64,000 nt of DNA from a bacterium HR40. Lineage in GTDB: Bacteria > Pseudomonadota > Alphaproteobacteria > Geminicoccales > Geminicoccaceae. Below are positions 13,655 through 63,809 of this stretch, one piece after another (the stretch's first letter is position 1; every line of letters starts with the position of its first letter). The stretch spans positions 186,001-250,000 of the forward strand of contig BEIQ01000004.1 of the NCBI GenBank assembly GCA_002898275.1. The letters run 5' to 3'. The notes under the pieces are model-generated. The model did not search any database, was not told the origin of the DNA, and saw only the letters and a list, made by a program, of their open reading frames with translations. Position numbers and translations under genes: made by a program.

Positions 13655-14212
13655 CTAGGCGTGCTCGCGCCATTTGATGGAGCAGCCCATGGACGGCACC
13701 TGCTCGGCCGGCCCGCGGCCCGTCCTGGCCACCAGCACCATGGCCTCGAACAGCTCGCGCTTGGCGCCCGGAGGGGCGGGTTGGCGGCCGGAAGCGTCGA
13801 GTCGACCGCGATACTGCAGCTCGAGGTTGGCATTGTAGCCAAAGAAATCCGGCGTGCAGACAGCGCCGTAGGCGCGCGCCACCTCCTGGGTCTCGTCCAC
13901 CAGATAGGGGAACGGGAAATCCTTCTCGCGGGCCCAGCGCTTCATGTTCTCGAAGCTGTCTTCGGGATATTGCTCGGGATCGTTGGGGTTGATGGCGATG
14001 GTCGTAACGCCGTGGGCGAGAAGCTCGCGGGCGTCGCGAACCAAGCGGTCGATGATCGCCTTCACATAAGGGCAGTGGTTGCACATGAAGACGATGAGCG
14101 TCCCCCGCTCCCCCTTGAGCTCCTCGAGGGTGTGGTAGCGGCCATCGACCCCGAGCAGCCGGAAGGGCTTGGCTTTTTCGCCGAAGTTGCACACCGGTGT
14201 GGTCACGGCCAT
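13655..14212 (-). CDS. Thioredoxin-family (AhpC/TSA-like) redox protein
   Basis: A 185-residue thioredoxin-fold protein with CNHC at 44-47 in the signature [17 protein letters not shown], then [40 protein letters not shown] and GCSIKW near the end. This subgroup is widespread and annotated as thioredoxin family or thiol-disulfide protein; its partner is not known. No signal peptide is visible, so it should act in the cytoplasm. ATG at 14212 with GGAGG upstream. The convergence of short gaps suggests it is transcribed just before ubiD. Confidence 0.88.
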
Positions 14213-36150: not shown

Positions 36151-36381
36151 ATGGGTGAGTTCTTCGCCATGGGAGGCTACGGCCTCTATGTGTGGAGTGC
36201 CTTCGGCTTCTCCGCCGTCGCGATGATCGCGCTCCTCGTCCACAGCCTCCGCCTCGCCCGCCGGCGCACCGCCGAGCTCGAGGCGATGCGGCTGCGCAGC
36301 CGCGAGCCGCGCACCCGAGAGGTGCGATCGCTCGCACCGGTTCGCCCGGCCGACGCGGCCATATCTCCGGAAGGGAGCTGA
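36151..36381 (+). CDS. ccmD: Heme exporter protein CcmD
   Basis: A 76-residue one-helix membrane protein: FFAMGGYGLYVWSAFG followed by a hydrophobic segment and SLRLARRRTAELEAM, the CcmD pattern. CcmD releases holo-CcmE from the CcmABC complex in system I cytochrome c maturation. The C-terminal tail (about 35 residues) is longer than usual. ATG with GAGGGAAGG upstream; 6 bp separate it from ccmE. CcmABC genes are not in the window. Confidence 0.88.
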   Translation: MGEFFAMGGYGLYVWSAFGFSAVAMIALLVHSLRLARRRTAELEAMRLRSREPRTREVRSLAPVRPADAAISPEGS

Positions 36382-36387
36382 GCCATC

Positions 36388-36864
36388 ATGCGCCTGCGCA
36401 AGCGCCAGCGCGCCCTTCTCGTCCTGCTCGTGGTGGCGCTCGTCGGTGGGGCCACCGCCCTCGTGCTCGCCGCCCTCCGCGACAGCATCTCCTTCTTCGT
36501 CACTCCGAGCCAGCTCGCTGCCGGCAAGGTCGAGCCCGGCCGCCGCCTGAGGATCGGCGGGCTCGTCGAAGCCCACTCGATCGTGCGCGAGGCCGACGGC
36601 AGCATCCGCTTCCGCGTCACCGACACCGCGGCTGCGGTGACGGTGCACTACAAAGGGATGCTTCCCGATCTCTTCCGCGAAGGGCAGGGGGTGGTGGCCA
36701 CCGGCGTCCTGTCCGCCGACGGGACTTTTCGGGCCGAGGAAGTGCTGGCCCGCCACGACGAGCGCTACATGCCGCGCGAAGTGGCCGACGCGCTCAAGGA
36801 GGCGGGATACTGGCAAGATACGGCGCGCGGCGGCGGTGCCGGGGCCGGGGGAGACGCCCGATGA
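36388..36864 (+). CDS. ccmE: Cytochrome c maturation heme chaperone CcmE
   Basis: A 158-residue periplasmic heme chaperone anchored by an N-terminal helix (about residues 9-30). The heme-attaching His123 is in [20 protein letters not shown], the family hallmark. The OB-fold region [20 protein letters not shown] and [20 protein letters not shown] is intact. The gene overlaps ccmF (ATGA). Confidence 0.96.
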
Positions 36865-38843
36865 CCGTGGAGCTCGGCCATTTCGCCCTCGTCCTCGCTT
36901 TCTGCGTCGCCATTCTCCAGGCGATCGTGCCGCTCGTCGGCGTCGCCCGCCGCGATCCCGTGCTCGCCGGCCTGGCACCGGCTGCCGCGGCTGCCCAGTT
37001 CCTGCTCCTCACTCTCGCCTTCGCCGCGCTCGTGCGAGCGCATCTCGCCGACGACTTCTCGGTTCTCAACGTCTACGAGAACTCGCATTCGACCAAGCCC
37101 GTTCTCTACAAATTCGCGGGCGTGTGGGGCAACCACGAAGGCTCCCTCGTGCTGTGGGTGTGGATCCTGGCCCTCTTCGGCTTTGCCATCGCCCTCGCCG
37201 GACGCCATCTGCCGATGTCCTTTCTCGCCCGCGTGCTGGCGATCCAGGGACTGATCGGCGCCGGTTTCCTCGCCTTCATGCTGTTCACGTCCAACGCCTT
37301 CGAACGCTTGTATCCGGCACCCGCCGACGGCCGCGGCCTCAACCCGATCCTCCAGGATCCCGGGCTCGCGTTCCATCCACCGATGCTCTATCTCGGCTAC
37401 GTCGGCTTCTCGACCGCCTATTCCTTCGCCATGGCGGCGCTTCTCGAGGGTCGGGTGGACGCCAGCTGGGCGCGTTGGCTGCGACCGTGGGTGCTCGCCG
37501 CCTGGGTGGCCCTCACCTTGGGCATCGCGCTGGGCAGCTGGTGGGCGTATTACGAGCTCGGCTGGGGCGGCTACTGGTTCTGGGACCCGGTCGAAAATGC
37601 CTCCTTCATGCCTTGGCTTGCGGGCACCGCGCTGCTGCACTCGGCGATCGTCCTCGAGAAGCGGGGAACGCTCAAGAACTGGACGATTCTGCTCGCCATC
37701 CTGACCTTCGCCCTCTCCCTGCTCGGAACCTTCCTCGTGCGCTCGGGCGTGCTCACCTCTGTTCATGCCTTCGCCTCCGATCCCTCGCGGGGGATCTTCA
37801 TCTTGGCGCTGCTGCTGTCAGCCGTCGGCGGGTCGTTCGCCCTCTATGCCTGGCGGGCGCCGGCGATGCAGGGCGGACCGACCTTCGCCCCGATTTCGCG
37901 GGAAGCCGCCCTCGTGCTCAACAATCTGCTGCTCGGTACCGCCACGGCCACGGTCTTTCTCGGAACCCTCTATCCTCTCGCCCTCGAGGCGGTGAGCGGA
38001 GAAAAAATCTCCGTCGGTCCCCCCTATTTCGATGCCACCTTCGTGCCGCTCATGGTGCCGCTGCTCCTCGCCCTGCCGGTGGGCACGATGCTCGCTTGGA
38101 AGCGGGGTGATCTCGCGGGCGTGTTGCAGCGCCTCGGACTCGCCGCGGCGGCGGCGATCGCGGCCGCCCTGCTCCAGCTCGCCCTCGTCGATCCCCGGGC
38201 ACCTCTCGCCGCCCTCGGTTTCGCTCTCGCCGCCTGGGTGGTGGTGGGGTCCCTTTCGGAACTCGCCGGGCGCATCGCCCTGTTCCGGGTCCCCCTCTCC
38301 CACAGCCTGCGGCGGCTTCTCGGCCTGCCGCGCTCGGCGATCGCCGCCACCATCGCCCATCTCGGGCTCGGCCTGATCGTGGTCGGGATCACCGCCTCGG
38401 CGGCGGGACGGGTCGAGAAGATCCTCGTGATGCGACCCGGCGAGACGACGGAGATCGCGGGCTTCGAGGTGCGGCTCGTCGGCATTTCCGAGGTACGGGG
38501 TCCCAACTACACGGCCGAGCGAGCGACCTTCGAGGCGCGGCGCGACGGCCAGTTGGTGGCGACGCTGCATTCGGAGAAGCGGTTCTTTCCGGTCGAACGC
38601 CAGATGACCACGGAGGCGGGAATCGACAGCAGCTTGCTGCGCGATCTCTACTTCGTGATCGGCGATAGGAACGGCGAGGGATGGACGGTTCGGCTCTACG
38701 TCAATCCGCTCGTGTTCTGGATCTGGGGCGGCGCCGGCATCATGGCGGTGGGTGGACTGTTGTCGCTGGCCGACCGCAGGCTCAGGGTCGGCGCTCCGGC
38801 CCGGCTCCCGGCCCGCGGCCTGGTGGCGGGAACTCGGCCGTGA
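36861..38843 (+). CDS. ccmF: Heme lyase CcmF
   Basis: A 660-residue multispanning protein that ligates heme from CcmE to apocytochrome c in the periplasm. The WWD-domain signature is [20 protein letters not shown]; conserved histidine regions include [14 protein letters not shown] and [13 protein letters not shown] periplasmic domain near the end ([20 protein letters not shown]) is also typical. ATG overlaps the ccmE stop and the stop overlaps the ccmG start (GTGA). Confidence 0.96.
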
Positions 38844-39418
38844 ACGACACCGACCGCCTCGCGGCGCGACCCCAGCGGCGCCTGTGGCTCTATCTCCTGC
38901 CACTCGCGCTGTTCGCCGTGGTAGCGGGGTTCCTCGCCTACGGGCTCACCCGCGATGCCCGTGTGCTGCCCTCGGCACTCATCGACCGGCCGGCTCCGGA
39001 GTTCGCTCTCCCCCCCATCCCCGGACGCGATACCCACGGTTTCGCACGCACCGACCTCGGCGGCGAGCCGCAGCTCGTCAACGTCTGGGCCTCCTGGTGC
39101 GTGCCCTGCCGCGCCGAACATCCGCTGCTGACCCGTCTCGCTCGCGAGGAGGGGGTGATCGTCGACGGCATCAACTACAAGGACCAGACGGAGGACGCGC
39201 GGGCGTTTTTGACCAAACTCGGCGATCCCTTTCGCTACATCGGCCAGGACCGCGACGGCCGGGTGGCGATCGAGTGGGGTGTCTACGGCGTGCCCGAGAC
39301 TTTCGTGATCGACCGCGAGGGCAGGATACGCTACCGGCACGTCGGCCCGCTCACCCCGCGCGATGTCGAGGACCGCATTCTGCCGCTGTTGCGCGAGCTG
39401 GGCCTGGGGGCGTCATGA
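38840..39418 (+). CDS. ccmG: Thiol:disulfide interchange protein CcmG/DsbE
   Basis: A 192-residue membrane-anchored thioredoxin-fold protein. Anchor at about residues 15-36; active site Cys87-Cys90 in NVWASWCVPCRAEHP, then INYKDQTEDARAFL and GVYGVPETFVIDREG with the cis-proline. It reduces apocytochrome c cysteines before heme attachment. GTG start overlaps the ccmF stop. Confidence 0.95.
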   Translation: MNDTDRLAARPQRRLWLYLLPLALFAVVAGFLAYGLTRDARVLPSALIDRPAPEFALPPIPGRDTHGFARTDLGGEPQLVNVWASWCVPCRAEHPLLTRLAREEGVIVDGINYKDQTEDARAFLTKLGDPFRYIGQDRDGRVAIEWGVYGVPETFVIDREGRIRYRHVGPLTPRDVEDRILPLLRELGLGAS

Positions 39419-39891
39419 GCCGGCGAGCCGGGGCTGTCCTGGCGATCCTCCTGTTCGTTCTGGCGACCGTCGGCCGGGCGGCCGTCTCCCCGGAGGAAAT
39501 GCTGGCCGATCCCGCACTGGAAGCGCGGGCCCGGGCGCTGGCCCGGGAGCTCCGTTGCCTCGTCTGCCAGAATCAGTCGATCGACGACTCGGATGCACCC
39601 CTCGCCCGCGATCTCCGGCGGATCGTTCGCGAGCGCTTGCTCGCCGGCGACTCCGACGAGGACGTACGGCGGTTTCTGGTCGACCGTTATGGCACTTTCG
39701 TGCTGCTCAAACCGCCGCTCGAGCCTGCCACCATCGCCCTCTGGGTAGGCCCCTTCGTCGTGCTGCTGGGAGCCGGTCTTGCGGTCTTCCGCTATCTGCG
39801 CCGCCCGGCTTCGACCACCCACCCCGAGGATCTGACGGAGGACGAGCGCCGGCGGCTCGAGGCGCTGCTGGCTCCACCGGCTCGAGATTGA
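39415..39891 (+). CDS. ccmH: Cytochrome c maturation protein CcmH/CycL
   Basis: A 158-residue protein with a signal peptide (1-23), the heme-lyase partner motif LRCLVCQNQSIDDSDA containing Cys48 and Cys51, and one C-terminal membrane helix (IALWVGPFVVLLGAGLAVF). It presents reduced apocytochrome c to CcmF. The usual CcmI TPR gene does not follow; the next 194 bp hold no gene. ATG overlaps the ccmG stop. Confidence 0.95.
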   Translation: MSRRAGAVLAILLFVLATVGRAAVSPEEMLADPALEARARALARELRCLVCQNQSIDDSDAPLARDLRRIVRERLLAGDSDEDVRRFLVDRYGTFVLLKPPLEPATIALWVGPFVVLLGAGLAVFRYLRRPASTTHPEDLTEDERRRLEALLAPPARD

Positions 39892-48807: not shown

Positions 48808-49326
48808 TCACAAGCACTTGAAATATTCGAACGGCTCCCGGCAAGCGCGGCAGCGCCAGAGGGCCTTGCAGGCGGTGGAGCCGAACTCGGCGAGCCTTTC
48901 CGTGTCGTGGCTGCCGCAACGCGGGCAGGGCACCTCGGGATCGTCGGCGAACAAGGCCCGGCGGGCAGATCCGGGCACCGGCGGAGCGATGCCGGCCTCG
49001 CGCAGCTTGCGGCGCCCCTGCGGACTGATCCAATCGGTGGTCCAGGGCGGGCTCAGGCGGGTCTCGATGCGGGCATGGGCGAAGCCCGCGCGGTCGAGAG
49101 CGGCGCGCACCGAGAGCTCGATGACCCGGGAGGCGGGACAGCCGGTGTAGGTCGGGGTGAGCACCACGACGGGTGTCCCATCCTCCTCGAAGCGCAGCTC
49201 GCGGACGATCCCGAGGTCGACGATCGAAAGCTGGGGGATCTCGGGATCCTCCACCGTCGCCAGCACCTCCTCGATCTGCCGCCGCTGCTCGCTGAGGGAC
49301 CTCGGGACGGGCACGGCTCGCCTCAC
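48808..49326 (-). CDS. paaD: Phenylacetyl-CoA epoxidase subunit PaaD
   Basis: A 172-residue PaaD. The N-terminal MIP18/DUF59 domain reads VEDPEIPQLSIVDLGIVREL and LTPTYTGCPASRVIEL; the C-terminal zinc ribbon has CPRCG, STACKALWRCRAC and FEYFKCL. PaaD is thought to assemble the Fe-S or di-iron centre of the PaaABCE monooxygenase. GTG start at 49326 overlaps the paaC stop (GTGA). It is the last gene; paaE does not follow. Confidence 0.94.
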   Translation of the reverse strand: MRRAVPVPRSLSEQRRQIEEVLATVEDPEIPQLSIVDLGIVRELRFEEDGTPVVVLTPTYTGCPASRVIELSVRAALDRAGFAHARIETRLSPPWTTDWISPQGRRKLREAGIAPPVPGSARRALFADDPEVPCPRCGSHDTERLAEFGSTACKALWRCRACREPFEYFKCL

Positions 49327-50087
49327 CAGGAGGTCGCGTCCGGATAGGCGCGCTGCAGGAACTGCATCTCGGCCAGGATGTAACCGAGGTGTTCGGTGTG
49401 CATGCGCCCGTCCTTGCCCCCCCGTTGCATGAAGGAGGCCTGCGGTCTGTCGAGGGTCGCTTCGGCGAGCACCGCGTTCACTCGCCGGTTCCAGCCCTCC
49501 TCGAGCTGTCGCAGATCGGGACCGATGCGACGCCGCGCCATTTCTTCGTCCACCGAATCGGGAGCGAAGAGCTCGCCCGTGTACATCCACAGACGGTCGA
49601 GCGCCGTCTGCATGCGGCGATGACTCTCCTCGGTGCCGTCGCCGAGCCGGATCACCCATTCCCCGGCATGACGGAGGTGATAGGCCGTTTCCTTGACGGC
49701 CTTGTCGGCGATCTCCCGCAGGCGTGCATCGGCGGAGTGGCGAAGCGCCCCGTAGCGCTGCTCGTCGAAGGCGGCGACCAGGAACAGCCGTCCGATGGTG
49801 TGAGCGAAGTCGCCGTTGGGCAGCTCCACCAACAGATGGTTGCGAAAGTCGAGTACGTCGCGGCGATAGGCGAGGGCGTCCTCGTCGCGCCCGGCTCCCT
49901 CGATCTCGCCGGCGTAGGTGAGCAGCAGGCGGGCGCGACCGACCAGATCCAACGCGATGTTGATGAGCGCCATCTCTTCCTCGAGCTCGGGCGCCTTGCC
50001 CACGAGCTCCGACAGGCGTTGGGCGAGGATCAGGCTGTCGTCGCCAAGCCGCAACACATAGGCGAAGAGGGCGGGATCGCCCGGCAC
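49323..50087 (-). CDS. paaC: Phenylacetyl-CoA epoxidase subunit PaaC
   Basis: A 254-residue ferritin-like structural subunit of the epoxidase. It has LFAYVLRLGDDSLILAQRLS, EEEMALINIALDLVGRARLL, FRNHLLVELPNGDFAHTIGR and HTEHLGYILAEMQFLQRAYP. PaaC supports PaaA in the di-iron core complex. I chose the GTG at 50087 because GAGGAG lies 6 bases upstream; 10 bp separate it from paaB. Confidence 0.94.
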   Translation of the reverse strand: MPGDPALFAYVLRLGDDSLILAQRLSELVGKAPELEEEMALINIALDLVGRARLLLTYAGEIEGAGRDEDALAYRRDVLDFRNHLLVELPNGDFAHTIGRLFLVAAFDEQRYGALRHSADARLREIADKAVKETAYHLRHAGEWVIRLGDGTEESHRRMQTALDRLWMYTGELFAPDSVDEEMARRRIGPDLRQLEEGWNRRVNAVLAEATLDRPQASFMQRGGKDGRMHTEHLGYILAEMQFLQRAYPDATSW

Positions 50088-50097
50088 GGCGGTCTCC

Positions 50098-50391
50098 TCA
50101 CATGTTCTCGACGTCGGGCGGGATGTGGTAGTGCGAGGGATGGCGGAAGACCTTGTCCTCGAACGGGGCGAAGAAGGCCTCGCGGTCCTCGGGACGCGAG
50201 GCGGTGACGGCGGAGGCGGGGACGACCCAGATGCTGGTCCCCTCGCCGCGGCGGGCATAGAGGTCGCGGGCCCACTCCAGCGCCATCTCGGGATCGGGTG
50301 CGTGCAGACTGCCGACGTGGCGATGGGCGAGCCCGTTGCGCGGCCGGACGAACACTTCATAGACGGGCCATTCGCGGCGGTCGGTGGTCAT
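50098..50391 (-). CDS. paaB: Phenylacetyl-CoA epoxidase subunit PaaB
   Basis: A 97-residue PaaB: WPVYEVFVRPRNGLAHRHVG, SLHAPDPEMALEWARDLYAR, SIWVVPASAVTAS and ending FRHPSHYHIPPDVENM. It is a small structural subunit of the phenylacetyl-CoA epoxidase. ATG at 50391 with GGAGGCGAGG upstream; 14 bp behind paaA. Confidence 0.95.
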   Translation of the reverse strand: MTTDRREWPVYEVFVRPRNGLAHRHVGSLHAPDPEMALEWARDLYARRGEGTSIWVVPASAVTASRPEDREAFFAPFEDKVFRHPSHYHIPPDVENM

Positions 50392-50405
50392 CGCCTCGCC
50401 TCCGC

Positions 50406-51398
50406 TCACGCCGCCCGCCGCCTCGCCCGTTTCTCGGCGTAGGCGGCGGCCGCCTCCCGTACCCAAGCCCCTTCGGCATGGGCGCGACGACGCTGCTCCA
50501 ACCGCTCGCGATTGCAAGGTCCGTTGCCGGCGATGACGCGGTGGAACTCCTCCCAGTCGATTTCGCCGAAGTCGTAATGACCCCGTTCGGAATTCCAGCG
50601 CAGATGGGGGTCGGGAATGGTGAGGCCGAGACGTTCCGCCTGAGGCACCGTGACATCGACAAACCGTTGGCGGAGCTCGTCGTTGCTCACCCGCTTGATC
50701 TTCCACTTCATGGATTGCGCGGAATGCACGGAATCCTTGTCCGGCGGCCCGAACATCATGAGTGCCGGCCACCACCAGCGATCGAGCGCATCCTGCGCCA
50801 TTCTCCGCTGTTCCGCCGTGCCATTGGCCAGCGCCATCATGATCTCATAGCCCTGGCGCTGGTGGAAACTCTCCTCCTTGCAGATGCGCACCATGGCGCG
50901 AGCATAGGGACCATAGGAGCAACGCTGCAGCGGCACTTGGTTCATGATCGCCGCACCATCGACGAGCCAGCCGATGGCGCCGATATCCGCCCAGGTCAGG
51001 GTCGGATAGTTGAAGATCGAGGAATATTTGGCCCGGCCCGCGAGCAGCTGCTCGACGAGTTCGGCCCGGGTCGGACCGAGGGTCTCGCAGGCGGAATAGA
51101 GGTAGAGGCCGTGTCCGGCCTCGTCTTGGATCTTGGCGAGGAGGATCGCCTTGCGGCGCAGGGTCGGCGCCCGTGTCACCCAGTTGCCCTCGGGCAGCAT
51201 GCCGACGATCTCGGAATGGGCGTGCTGGCTGATCTGGCGGATCAGAGTTCGGCGGTAGCCCTCCGGCATCCAGTCCGAAGGCTCGATGCGGATCTCCGCG
51301 TCGATCTTGGCCTGGAACGCGGCCTCGCGCGCCTTTTCTTCGGCTGTTTCGGCCTCGCGCACGGGCCCGATCTGGCCATCCAGCCCCTGAGTGTACAT
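50406..51398 (-). CDS. paaA: Phenylacetyl-CoA epoxidase catalytic subunit PaaA
   Basis: A 330-residue di-iron catalytic subunit that epoxidises the ring of phenylacetyl-CoA. The metal site residues lie in [20 protein letters not shown] and [20 protein letters not shown] (two ExxH motifs). The N-terminal region [20 protein letters not shown] is also intact. It heads paaABCD; the reductase gene paaE and the rest of the phenylacetate pathway are not in the window. ATG at 51398 with GGAGGGACGG upstream. No promoter was clear by eye. Confidence 0.96.
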
Positions 51399-52684
51399 GC
51401 CCGTCCCTCCGCGCACGCCTCGATTGCCCTTCAAGATGATGGGCCATGCGAGCCGGTTCAATTGGCGCCGCGGTCGCAGGAGCCGCGCCCCTCGTGCTCG
51501 CCGCGTCCAGGTGCCGCCTCCGGATGGTGGTTCCCCCCATCGCGCCATGGCGCGCTGGGGCGAAGAGGGCGGAGGCACGGCGAGAGAAACCGCCGCATCG
51601 GCGGTGGGTTGCGGCAGAAGGCCCGGGCGTCGACGGCACCGCGCGTCGGGATCGGAGAGGTCTGCGGCCAACGACCCCTCGCGTGCACGGTGGCAGGCCT
51701 CGTCGCCTTTCGACCATCGGCGGTGGGGGCGGACGTCCCCGGGATCGCGTGCCGTGGTCAGCAAGCTCCCGGATGCGCCGGTCCTCGGGGATCCGCGAGC
51801 CGCTCTTCGCCACGAGGCCGCATGCCGTCGCTTGCCCATGCCAAGCCCATGCGGAATGGAGGCGAAGCGCACAGCGAAAGCGCGCAGCAGCGAGGCTCCT
51901 GCCTCCTTTTTCGACAAGGCCGCCGAGGCCTTGGGTTGAGGAGCAAGGGGAGAGGAGCGGCCCCGACGGCGGACGGCAAGTCGCTCTCCGCCTCGATCGG
52001 CGCCGGGCGTGCCCTGGCTGGCATGGGAGCCTGCCGCCCGCACGGTCGTCGCTCGGCCTTCCGCTGTCGCGCCGTCGACGACCGAGGCGAGGTGTGGTTC
52101 GCGCCGGGCCGCGGGCCGGGGGACGCCCGAAAGCATCCTTTGCCCGAGCGACCGGAGCGGCACCCAGCTCGCGCAGCGGCGGTGGCGCGCGTGGCGACCG
52201 GACAGGCCGGATCGAACGGCCTCCGGAACCGGGGTTCGACGCGATCGAGAACGCCCAGCCTTTCCATCGCTTCGCTCGGTCCGCATCGAAAAGCCGGGAA
52301 GCGACGGAACGCGATGCTCGCGCCCGCCGCGACGGACGGGCTCGGCCGCTCCGCGAGAGCGCGAGGGCAGCTGCCAGGAGCACCGGACGGCTGCCTATGC
52401 CAGCGAAGCGATGGTCGAGGGCGCGCACGCGAGCCCAAGGGAGCGCGAGCGATCCGACCTACCGCGGCATCTGCCCGGCGTTCCCGGCGACGTTCCGATC
52501 GGCTGCTTGCCGCGAAAGGTGCCGTCGTGCCTGCCACCGTCTCGCACCGGTGGACGACGGGCTCTCTGTCCTCGCTCCACCTGTCCTCGAGCCCGAGCAC
52601 AGGGGAAGAGAGCGCGCGTCGTGCTGCGCCTTCCAGGACAGGGAAGCGGGCGGAGAACCCCGAGGTGCGACCATCGCAGCACCG
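51399..52684. other. Gene-free stretch of about 1.3 kb
   Basis: No credible gene was found. Several long open frames exist on both strands, but none has family motifs, a ribosome-binding site with a sensible start, or normal amino-acid composition; translations are Arg/Pro/Ser/Gly-rich in all frames. Base composition is GC-rich throughout and stop codons are rare. I saw no repeats, tRNA or terminator. It could be decayed coding sequence or a structured RNA, neither supported directly. Confidence 0.6.
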
Positions 52685-52990
52685 TCAGCGTGCAGTGCGC
52701 GGGTCGCTGCAGCTCGCCGCTGGCGCCGGAGGGGCGCGCAGATCGCGCGGGTCGTCTTGTCGGGGCGCGCATGGATCGCTCGGGGCGGCGGGAGGCAGGA
52801 TACCCGGCGGCAGCGGACCGAAGCTGCCGAGATATCGGCGTTCGCGCCCAGGATCGGGTACCGGATAGCAGGCGACGTCGGCGAGCGTGCGGTAGCAAAA
52901 AGCGGCCGCCGCCGTCTCGCCCGCACGCCCCGCGGGCGCCCCACAGGCGAAGAAGACGCAGACGAAGAGCAAAGCCCGTCGCACCGTCAT
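52685..52990 (-). CDS. Small secreted cysteine-containing protein
   Basis: A 101-residue protein with a signal peptide (residues 1-23; MTVRRALLFVCVFFACGAP then AGRAGE). The conserved-looking core AAFCYRTLADVACYPVPDPG resembles small alphaproteobacterial lipoproteins with a YRTLADVxCY block. The rest is Pro-rich with further Cys. ATG at 52990 with GGAGAGGG 5 bases upstream. It is divergent from mauB with a 168-bp gap, so it may share its control region. Function unknown. Confidence 0.65.
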   Translation of the reverse strand: MTVRRALLFVCVFFACGAPAGRAGETAAAAFCYRTLADVACYPVPDPGRERRYLGSFGPLPPGILPPAAPSDPCAPRQDDPRDLRAPPAPAASCSDPRTAR

Positions 52991-53066
52991 GGCGCCCTCT
53001 CCATGCCACAGACCGGCTAAAAGAGAGTGAACGCCGGGGGACAGGCCCGCGCCTGGCCTCGGGGCT

Positions 53067-53084
53067 GTAGTAGTATGCTGCTAC
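53067..53084. promoter_or_regulatory. Inverted repeat upstream of mauB
   Basis: GTAGTAG-TATG-CTGCTAC, 7-bp arms with one mismatch, around a TAGTAT (-10-like) sequence. It lies 75 bp upstream of the mauB start, in the gap divergent from the small secreted protein. Possible operator or promoter element; no convincing -35 box. Confidence 0.3.
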
Positions 53085-53158
53085 CTCTCGGTCGGAAGTG
53101 GACCTAAACTGCCAGGCGGCTGCCGGCGGGAAGGGTCGGATCGAGGGAGGTCGTGGCA

Positions 53159-54346
53159 ATGGGAGCGCGATCCTGGCTGTGCGCGACTGTGGCGGTGCTA
53201 CCGCTGCTCGGGGTTTCGCCGCCGGTGGGAGCACAGCAGACCCTCGAGTCGCTGCCGCCCGAAGCCAAGCTCGAGGTCTCGGAAGAGCACACCACCGCCC
53301 GCCTCGGCGAGCCGAAGCCGCACTGGGTCTACGTACTCGATCCGGTATTCCCGCATTTGATCGCCTCCAAAGTGTACGTAATCGACGGCGACAGCCTGTC
53401 GATTCTCGGGATGATCAACACCGGCTATGTGCCGAACCTCGGGTTGTCACCCGATGCCCGGCAGCTCTATGTCGCCGAGACGTATTGGTCGCGCGGCACT
53501 CGGGGCGAGCGGACCGACGTGGTGACCTTCTACGACGGCGATCGCCTCGAGGCGGTCGGCGAGGTCGAGCTGCCTCGCGGACGGTTCCTGGTGGTGCCGA
53601 AGAAACCCGATGCGGCGGTCACTCCGGACGGACGATATCTCCTCTCCTTCAATATGGACCCGGCCACGAGCGTGAGCGTCGTCGACCTCGCCGAGCGGCG
53701 GTATGTCGCCGATATCGATTCGCCGGGCTGCTCCCTGGTTTTCCCGACCGCCGAACGCAGCTTCGCCATGCTGTGCCCGGATGGTTCCTTCGTCGACTTC
53801 ACCTTTTCGGCTGACGGCAAGGCAGAGGCGAAGATGAACCAGCCGTTCTTCGACGCGGAAGAGGATCCCGTGTTCGAGCACGGGGTGGTGAGCCATGCCG
53901 ACCGTCGCGCCTTCTTCGTCTCCTACGAAGGGGTGCTCTACGAGGTCGACATCTCCCAGGGTCGCACCCAACTCGCCGAGAGCTGGTCGCTCCTCGACGC
54001 CAAGGACCAAGCTGCCCACTGGCGCCCCGGCGGCTGGCAGCTCCTCGCCTATCACGCTTCGACCGATCGCCTGTTCGTGCTCATGCACCGCGGTCCGCGC
54101 TGGACCCACAAGCACGGAGGCGAGGAGGTGTGGGTGTTCGACGTCTCTCGCAATCAACGCGTGGCCCGGATCCCGCTCGAGCATCACGCGATTTCTTTGG
54201 CCGTCAGCCAGGACAGTTCGCCCCTTCTCTACGCACTGAGCGAGAGCGCCTCGCTCGCCGTGTTCGATGGCACCAGCCTGAAAGCCATGGGGGTGATGGA
54301 AGGGATCGGCGATTCCCCGTTCCTCCTCTACGTGCCGGGTGAGTGA
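53159..54346 (+). CDS. mauB: Amine dehydrogenase heavy (beta-propeller) subunit, MauB/AauB type
   Basis: A 395-residue periplasmic protein with a signal peptide (to about residue 26, PPVGAQQ) and a seven-bladed YVTN-like propeller. Family markers are WVYVLDPVFPHLIASKVYVI, LGLSPDARQLYVAETYWSRG, GERTDVVTFYD, LSFNMDPATSVSVVDL and HKHGGEEVWVFD. This matches the heavy subunit of methylamine or aralkylamine dehydrogenase. I chose the ATG at 53159 (GGAGG 8 bases upstream) over the GTG at 53153. The light subunit gene follows by 23 bp, without mauE or mauD between. Confidence 0.93.
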   Translation: MGARSWLCATVAVLPLLGVSPPVGAQQTLESLPPEAKLEVSEEHTTARLGEPKPHWVYVLDPVFPHLIASKVYVIDGDSLSILGMINTGYVPNLGLSPDARQLYVAETYWSRGTRGERTDVVTFYDGDRLEAVGEVELPRGRFLVVPKKPDAAVTPDGRYLLSFNMDPATSVSVVDLAERRYVADIDSPGCSLVFPTAERSFAMLCPDGSFVDFTFSADGKAEAKMNQPFFDAEEDPVFEHGVVSHADRRAFFVSYEGVLYEVDISQGRTQLAESWSLLDAKDQAAHWRPGGWQLLAYHASTDRLFVLMHRGPRWTHKHGGEEVWVFDVSRNQRVARIPLEHHAISLAVSQDSSPLLYALSESASLAVFDGTSLKAMGVMEGIGDSPFLLYVPGE

Positions 54347-54369
54347 AACCGCCGCGGAGGCCGACAGCG

Positions 54370-54903
54370 ATGACCACGATCAGCTTCTTCGACCGGGGTG
54401 TGGAGCGGCTGAGCCGGTTTCTTGCCCAGCGCAGCTCGCGGCGCAGCGTCCTCGCCCGACTCGGCACCTTGCTCGCCGGAGGCGCCCTGGTGCCGCTCTT
54501 GCCGGTCGACCGGACCGGGGGCGGTCGGCGGGCAAGAGCGGAAGCCTTCGCCGCCGGAGCGCAAACCAAGGATCCCACGCAGTGCAACTACTGGCGCTAC
54601 TGCGCTATCGACGGCTACATGTGCAGCTGTTGCGGCGGCGGCCCCAACACCTGTCCGCCGGGTACCCAGCCGTCACCGAGCTCCTGGGTCGGTAGCTGCA
54701 TCAATCCCGACGACGGGCAAGCCTATCTCATCGCCTACCGCGACTGCTGCGGTAAGGATTCCTGCGGCCGCTGTGCCTGTCTCGCGCTCGAAGGCGAAAT
54801 GCCCGTCTATCGCCCGCAGCTCAACAACGATATCGTCTGGTGTTTCGGCGCGCCGAGCATGGTGTACCACTGCTCCAGTGCGGCCTTGATCGGTCGCGCC
54901 TGA
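54370..54903 (+). CDS. mauA: Amine dehydrogenase light (TTQ) subunit, MauA/AauA type
   Basis: A 177-residue catalytic subunit carrying the tryptophan tryptophylquinone cofactor. A twin-arginine-type signal (SSRRSVLARLGTLLAGG) precedes the mature chain. The two TTQ tryptophans are Trp106 in SPSSWVGSC and Trp157 in NDIVWCFG, 51 residues apart as in known MADH (57 and 108). By my count 14 cysteines lie in the mature part, including CSCC and RDCCGKDSCGRCAC. ATG at 54370 has GGAGG 8 bases upstream. It oxidises primary amines in the periplasm; methylamine versus aromatic amines cannot be told. No mauE, D, F or G is nearby. Confidence 0.95.
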   Translation: MTTISFFDRGVERLSRFLAQRSSRRSVLARLGTLLAGGALVPLLPVDRTGGGRRARAEAFAAGAQTKDPTQCNYWRYCAIDGYMCSCCGGGPNTCPPGTQPSPSSWVGSCINPDDGQAYLIAYRDCCGKDSCGRCACLALEGEMPVYRPQLNNDIVWCFGAPSMVYHCSSAALIGRA

Positions 54904-63281: not shown

Positions 63282-63809
63282 ATGGTCCTCGCGCGTGTCG
63301 CGTTCCTGCTCCTCTTGCTCGCCGCACTCCCGCATCCGGCAGTCGCAGCGGCCAGTCTCCAGCCGGCGCAGAGCCGCGAGCTGCTGCCGGATATCGCCTT
63401 CCTCGACATGGACGACAAGCCTGCGCGGCTCTCGGATTTCCGCGGGCGGGTGGTAGTGCTCAACGTCTGGGCTACCTGGTGTGCTCCCTGCCGCGAAGAG
63501 ATGCCCTCTCTCGATCGGTTGCAGCAGATCTTCGCCGACCAACCGGTGACGGTCCTCGCCCTTTCGGTGGATCGCGGAGAGGCCGGGCGCATCCGGGAAT
63601 TCCTCGCCGAGATCGGCGTCCACCGGCTTGCCGTCTACCGCGACCCGAAGATGCGAGCGATCCAGGAGCTACGCGTGCCTGGGCTACCCGCGACCATCCT
63701 CGTCGACCGGGCCGGACGGGAAGCCCTGCGTCAACTCGGGGTTGCCGTGTGGGATGCACCCGAGGTCGTCGCGCTCATCCGCGATCTGCTCGCCGAAGCC
63801 GTCCCGTGA
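63282..63809 (+). CDS. tlpA: Thiol-disulfide oxidoreductase TlpA family
   Basis: A 175-residue exported thioredoxin-fold protein. Signal or anchor at residues 1-23, active site Cys67-Cys70 in [19 protein letters not shown], then [19 protein letters not shown] and [14 protein letters not shown] with the cis-proline. TlpA proteins reduce cysteines for cytochrome oxidase and cytochrome c assembly in the periplasm. ATG at 63282 with GGAGG 8 bases upstream. Divergent tlpA/argH is a common alphaproteobacterial layout. Confidence 0.92.

Follow-up and report, generated by a model that had tools for sequence, protein, structure and literature searches.

On sequence grounds, the region 53159-54903 of the analysed window, a 64,000-nt stretch of the genome of bacterium HR40 (Geminicoccaceae, Alphaproteobacteria), encodes intact, back-to-back subunits of a TTQ amine dehydrogenase, whose TTQ formation and amine oxidation are predicted. 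Its features, in window coordinates, are as follows:

53159-54346, forward strand: large (heavy/alpha) subunit of a TTQ amine dehydrogenase, B (assigned from PF06433, identity to a paralogue on contig C1, and the tree)
54347-54369, forward strand: B-A spacer of 23 bases, with GGAGG at 54356-54360 (read from the sequence)
54370-54903, forward strand: small (light/beta) subunit of a TTQ amine dehydrogenase, A (assigned from PF02975, TIGR02659, identity to the C1 paralogue, and the alignment)

The large-subunit frame runs from an ATG at 53159 to a stop at 54346 (395 aa) and matches PF06433 in a profile search (E = 3e-73), while its TIGR02658 score of 260 bits is below the cut-off of 454. Its N terminus resembles a signal peptide by eye and, going by the neighbors of its kin, it is a putative AADH-type subunit. 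The small-subunit frame runs from an ATG at 54370 to a stop at 54903 (177 aa), and the GGAGG, which resembles a ribosome-binding site, lies 9 bases 5' of this ATG; an alternative GTG start at 54343 would give 186 aa. This subunit matches PF02975 in a profile search (E = 2.3e-52), scores above the TIGR02659 cut-off (229 versus 197 bits), and carries a leader, SRRSVLARLG, that looks twin-arginine-like by eye. The two TTQ tryptophans, W106 and W157 (177-aa numbering; spacing of 51), are strictly conserved across all 26 aligned small subunits, and so is the active-site pair D81 and D125, which we take to be Asp32 and Asp76 of MADH. The core has 14 cysteines. We rejected 14 rather than 12 core cysteines as a mark of the AADH type, given that 14 are also found in 22 of 26 MADH rows. 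The PF06433 heavy chain and PF02975 light chain thus occur as a pair, and its relatives of solved structure are methylamine and aromatic amine dehydrogenase chains. An AF2 prediction for the small subunit was of low quality (pLDDT 62.7), and no fold search was based on it.

The preliminary description of this DNA had reported adjacent TTQ subunits with both tryptophans and a cysteine-rich core intact, no mauE, mauD, mauF, mauG or electron acceptor nearby, and ccm and thioredoxin-like genes in the window. Each of these statements held: the frames are intact and separated by only the 23-base gap, and a tblastn screen of the 64 kb (68 MauD, 66 MauE, 48 cytochrome c, 25 MauG, 23 MauF, 4 cytochrome b, and 2 MauJ queries, duplicate loci included) returned no credible mau accessory gene. 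For MauD, the strongest match (5.9e-4) falls on a redoxin-like protein at 13655-14212. Two stronger "cytochrome" matches at 54645-54899 arose from queries that were stop-to-stop cytochrome ORFs overlapping the mauA region, and weak cytochrome-like matches at 51399-53158 were rejected (best E 0.001, many queries against a 3-kb target). Remnants of mauE or mauD between B and A are ruled out because the 23-base gap leaves no room for them, and none was found elsewhere in the window. An Rfam search of the window gave no hits. The following genes lie around the pair:

36151-39891: ccm genes (CcmD, CcmE, CcmF, a redoxin, and CcmH)
48808-51398, reverse strand: PaaD, PaaC, PaaB, and PaaA of phenylacetyl-CoA epoxidase (TIGR02159, TIGR02158, TIGR02157, and TIGR02156, each above cut-off)
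63282-63809: TlpA-like protein

Beyond paaABCD, the next gene encodes a solute-binding protein, not PaaE. The ~1.7 kb between paaA and the pair (51399-53158) has little coding signal and holds three long ORFs without a Pfam match; a short ORF in it (52685-52990, reverse strand) looks like a secreted protein by eye. Directly downstream of the pair, a metallo-beta-lactamase-fold gene (PF13483; 54917-55680, reverse strand) has its coding signal distributed over three frames, reflecting either a pseudogene or assembly errors. This broken gene and the long non-coding-like stretch beside the pair could be signs of local decay. A simple promoter scan found none for the pair; it says little, since only 0.2 were expected by chance.

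The HR40 genome (2.89 Mb, 8 contigs, rated 100% complete) has two PF02975 matches, one in the window (contig C4, 186001-250000) and one on contig C1. The C1 cluster (L003) has the order B, mauE, mauD, mauA, and a mono-haem cytochrome c. Its MauE matches PF07291 (E = 3e-31), and its MauD, the sole MauD match in the genome, is above the TIGR02661 cut-off with 229 bits. The window and C1 paralogues are 52% (B) and 73% (A) identical. Hence, the window pair has no mauE and mauD between B and A and no cytochrome c after A, and all three genes sit beside its C1 paralogue, so that the cell encodes helpers and a candidate acceptor at another locus. A search of this genome, rated complete, for PF03150 (the MauG/cytochrome peroxidase family) gave no match; the same search recovered a PF03150 gene ~1.2 kb after one mauA in five genomes of the family. 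MauF likewise had no match in the HR40 genome with one MauF query, whose only positive in that search (G023) was its own source but which also scores 213-267 bits on distant MauF proteins. Neither mauF nor mauG, the mark of the MADH/mau cluster, was thus found in window or genome. The preliminary description had proposed that the maturation factors are encoded elsewhere or that cofactor formation follows another route, and that finding MauF, MauE, MauD, and MauG in the genome would reduce the pair to a rearranged cluster. The first proposal holds in part: E, D, and a cytochrome c are present on C1, and F and G were not found in the genome.

We also compared mau loci of relatives; the contig scan used two peptide patterns and favors certain sequences. 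After 14 duplicate loci were dropped, 64 rows remained: 33 AADH-type, 26 MADH, and 5 bare. These labels were assigned by gene content, so that the absence of F and G from AADH rows is true by definition. E and D occur in 32 of 33 AADH-type rows, the exception (L117) starting at a contig end, and a cytochrome in 33 of 33; among MADH rows, G is present in 25 of 26 and F in 23 of 26. Our home-made gene caller performs poorly on low-GC loci, and neighbors there were therefore found by homology only. Some arrangements vary: a Pseudomonadaceae MAG has the order E-D-cytochrome-B-A (L151, 7166-10516), another case of adjacent B and A; three AADH-type loci (L097, L132, and L152) have two cytochrome c frames downstream; and L114 has two haem motifs within one stop-to-stop frame.

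A survey of relatives for the bare B-A arrangement, suggested at the outset, added four genomes to HR40: G014 (L111), Bacterium HR39 (G028, L112), G022 (L109), and G060 (L110). The flanks of the five pairs differ, except for a Sir2-like gene downstream that L111 and L112 have in common (by eye). Three of the five genomes (HR40, G014, and G028) also have a full B-E-D-A-cytochrome c cluster, and G022 has, besides its bare pair, an A gene and a cytochrome at a contig end. G060 (a 2.6-Mb MAG of unstated completeness) gave no MauE, MauD, or second mauA match. Upstream of its bare pair lies an RHH_4 gene (612-905), and the same family occurs upstream of B in L100, L114, L120, L122, and L124 and downstream of A in L125, L126, and L127. 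This recurrent ribbon-helix-helix gene could be a regulator, and its position upstream of B both in L110 and in AADH-type loci would fit a bare pair derived from a full unit that lost E, D, and cytochrome. The adjoining paaABCD genes are a hint that the window enzyme may act on an arylethylamine; they were not seen in the 4-14 kb of flank around the other four bare pairs.

We then built a tree from joined A and B sequences (508 columns, 50 rows; root not inferred, drawing midpoint-rooted), which omits 15 near-duplicate or partial MADH rows and L117, which has no B. A branch with support of 83/41 (not starred; 82% of 200 bootstrap trees) separates the five bare pairs from the other rows, and they appear to form one weakly supported clade. 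Together with seven partner B-E-D-A rows they make a starred set of 12 (96/93), and a starred set of 20 rows around the pair comprises these five and 15 AADH-type B-E-D-A-cytochrome c rows without F or G. MADH rows and the MADH reference form a starred clade with the window pair outside it, and the Alcaligenes faecalis AADH reference groups with L097 on a different branch. The AADH-type rows do not form a single clade (3 changes), and the midpoint-rooted drawing places the MADH clade between AADH-type branches; "AADH-type" is hence a gene-content group. The tree, for which no gene content was used, groups rows largely by label (4 changes against a minimum of 3). The methylamine mau cluster, the yardstick of the preliminary description, fits in having TTQ subunits but is not the nearest comparison: the closest kin of the pair are AADH-type clusters without linked F or G, so that the question of another route concerns the whole group and not this pair. 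The stem of the partner clade is longer than that of the bare clade (0.47 versus 0.033), and the bare copy thus looks the less changed one. The residue before W157 is Val in the five bare pairs and Asp (6) or Ala (2) in the seven partner rows and L117; this difference at the second TTQ tryptophan perhaps gives the partner rows, including the C1 paralogue (L003, 10901-11434), a different substrate.

How far does the lack of MauG extend? At the family level, PF02975 is carried by 17 of 60 genomes, HR40 included; at the order level it is carried by 16 of 31, all among those already found. In five of the 17 (G016, G023, G027, G029, and G030), which have two mauA copies each, a PF03150 gene lies ~1.2 kb downstream of one copy, and the sole linked cluster read among them, L108 of G023, is F-B-E-D-A-J-G. 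These are five of the six genomes of genus g6, and with one PF03150-linked mauA and one unlinked copy each they offer a natural within-cell comparison of the two cluster types. PF03150 was not matched near mauA in the remaining 12 genomes. Seven of these lack any PF03150 match (HR40 [G000], G011, G014, G021, G022, G026, and G039; completeness 100, 70, 99, 99, 90, 89, and 100%, respectively), and five have unlinked homologues (G001, G005, G007, G015, and G028). The AADH-type or bare loci led to 16 further genomes (17 loci were named, with L114's genome left out), which were searched for PF03150 alone: seven gave no PF03150 match (G060, G062, G063, G071, G072, G074, and G075), and at least one match is present in nine. 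Among the seven, G063 is the isolate Modicisalibacter luteus, with the AADH-type locus L132. Overall, 14 of 28 genomes carrying AADH-type or bare loci lack a PF03150 match. We judged from model scores that the unlinked PF03150 proteins of AADH-only genomes are probably not MauG. Seven such proteins from five genomes have MbnH and MauG model scores that differ by no more than 34 bits, with the MbnH score ahead in five (e.g., 218 versus 211), whereas linked MauG proteins score 538 (MauG) versus 202 (MbnH) in L134 and 269 versus 177 in L108, the latter below the MauG cut-off of 444.

AADH-type genomes without PF03150 must either complete the cofactor by other means or form no TTQ. We put at about even the chance that AADH-type TTQ enzymes, this pair included, build TTQ without a MauG-family di-haem enzyme, with MauE and MauD plus at most the conserved mono-haem cytochrome c (or autocatalysis) being sufficient; this would constitute a second route to TTQ. 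Our open-access literature searches turned up no paper on MauG-free TTQ, which carries little weight because most subscription papers lie outside that scope. A tentative alternative, which we consider somewhat unlikely, is that there is a counterpart of MauG after all, either so diverged that PF03150 misses it or an enzyme of a different type, haem- or flavin-based. Other enzymes are compatible with the absence of PF03150, and flavoproteins are described as serving in the making of other tryptophylquinones (PMC7876137). However, no further family stands steadily beside AADH-type clusters: besides B, E, D, A, and the cytochrome, the next family occurs in at most 10 of 38 AADH-type and bare loci, at differing places, a count that covers neighborhoods only and to which genes elsewhere are invisible.

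Pairwise Nei-Gojobori dN/dS among the five bare pairs is 0.21-0.32 for B and 0.10-0.30 for A (dS 0.4 to 1.3), values that indicate that the bare pair is under purifying selection. These data bear on the possibility that the bare pair is decaying or is a duplicate without cofactor, whose subunits may be made but would gain no TTQ because the maturation genes are not co-expressed. The poorly coding 1.7 kb and the three-frame metallo-hydrolase-like gene on its flanks are in keeping with decay, as is, for the little it says, the empty promoter scan (0.2 expected by chance), but both frames are intact, the tryptophans, aspartates, and cysteines have been retained, dN/dS lies well under 1, and the pair is retained in five genomes with mostly different flanks; we regard decay as improbable. 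Less probable still, and hard to credit, is that the bare pair can do without dedicated helpers, with autocatalysis and the general disulfide machinery of the periplasm being enough: G060, in which the bare pair supplies the only mauA match and neither MauE nor MauD is matched, would agree with this, but it is a MAG of unstated completeness, and three of five bare-pair genomes (HR40, G014, and G028) have the full cluster and a fourth, G022, has A and cytochrome c at a contig end.

We conclude that the pair is a genuine and conserved duplicate of an enzyme type already known, with helper genes located in trans. The sequence data establish its gene content, the lack of a PF03150 or MauF match in the genome, the second cluster, the phylogeny, and purifying selection. 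We suggest that it is probably a duplicated AADH-type TTQ enzyme matured by MauE and MauD in trans, its TTQ presumably formed without MauG. Weighing against this reading are G060, the weak support for the bare-pair clade, the scatter of AADH-type rows on the tree, and the possible local decay beside the pair. An ancestral B-E-D-A-cytochrome c unit would have duplicated, if we order the events correctly; the C1 copy would have kept E, D, and the cytochrome, and the other would have been left as a bare B-A operon. Both subunits would be exported to the periplasm, as the family suggests, and the small-subunit disulfides would be made with MauD and MauE supplied from C1. TTQ, if it forms, would be made without MauG, as AADH-type genomes without a detectable MauG-family gene would also require. 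The window enzyme would then oxidise an (aryl)alkylamine, possibly an arylethylamine, and pass electrons to a periplasmic c-type cytochrome, perhaps that of C1. The wider point worth testing is how TTQ enzymes fare in genomes without detectable MauG: AADH-type enzymes in genomes without a PF03150 match make a MauG-free route testable, and the bare B-A pair offers a minimal starting point for working out which helpers are really required.

Among known systems, AADH of Alcaligenes faecalis has homologous heavy and light chains (PDB 2h3x_A and 2agl_D), the same TTQ tryptophan positions, and 14 core cysteines (its count made by eye). The A. faecalis (aau) cluster has the order B-E-D-A, and we know of no mauG in it. 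The window pair differs in its distant sequence, its different tree branch, and the lack of E and D between B and A. MADH, with the mau cluster F-B-E-D-A-J-G, belongs to the same two-subunit family, and the window small subunit passes its TIGR02659 model; unlike MADH, the window pair has no F or G, a large subunit below the TIGR02658 cut-off, and a place outside the starred MADH clade. In MADH, MauG is described as the established TTQ maker (PMC6405878), acting on a mono-hydroxylated precursor; autocatalysis is thought to account for that first hydroxylation (PMC7876137). Methylacidiphilum infernorum is described as having a mauBEDA-cytochrome operon with the same subunit types and, as in the C1 cluster, the B-E-D-A order plus cytochrome c with no MauF in the operon as reported (PMC2474590). 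In contrast to the window pair, E and D are linked there, and the same genome is reported to encode a MauG homologue at another location (PMC2474590).
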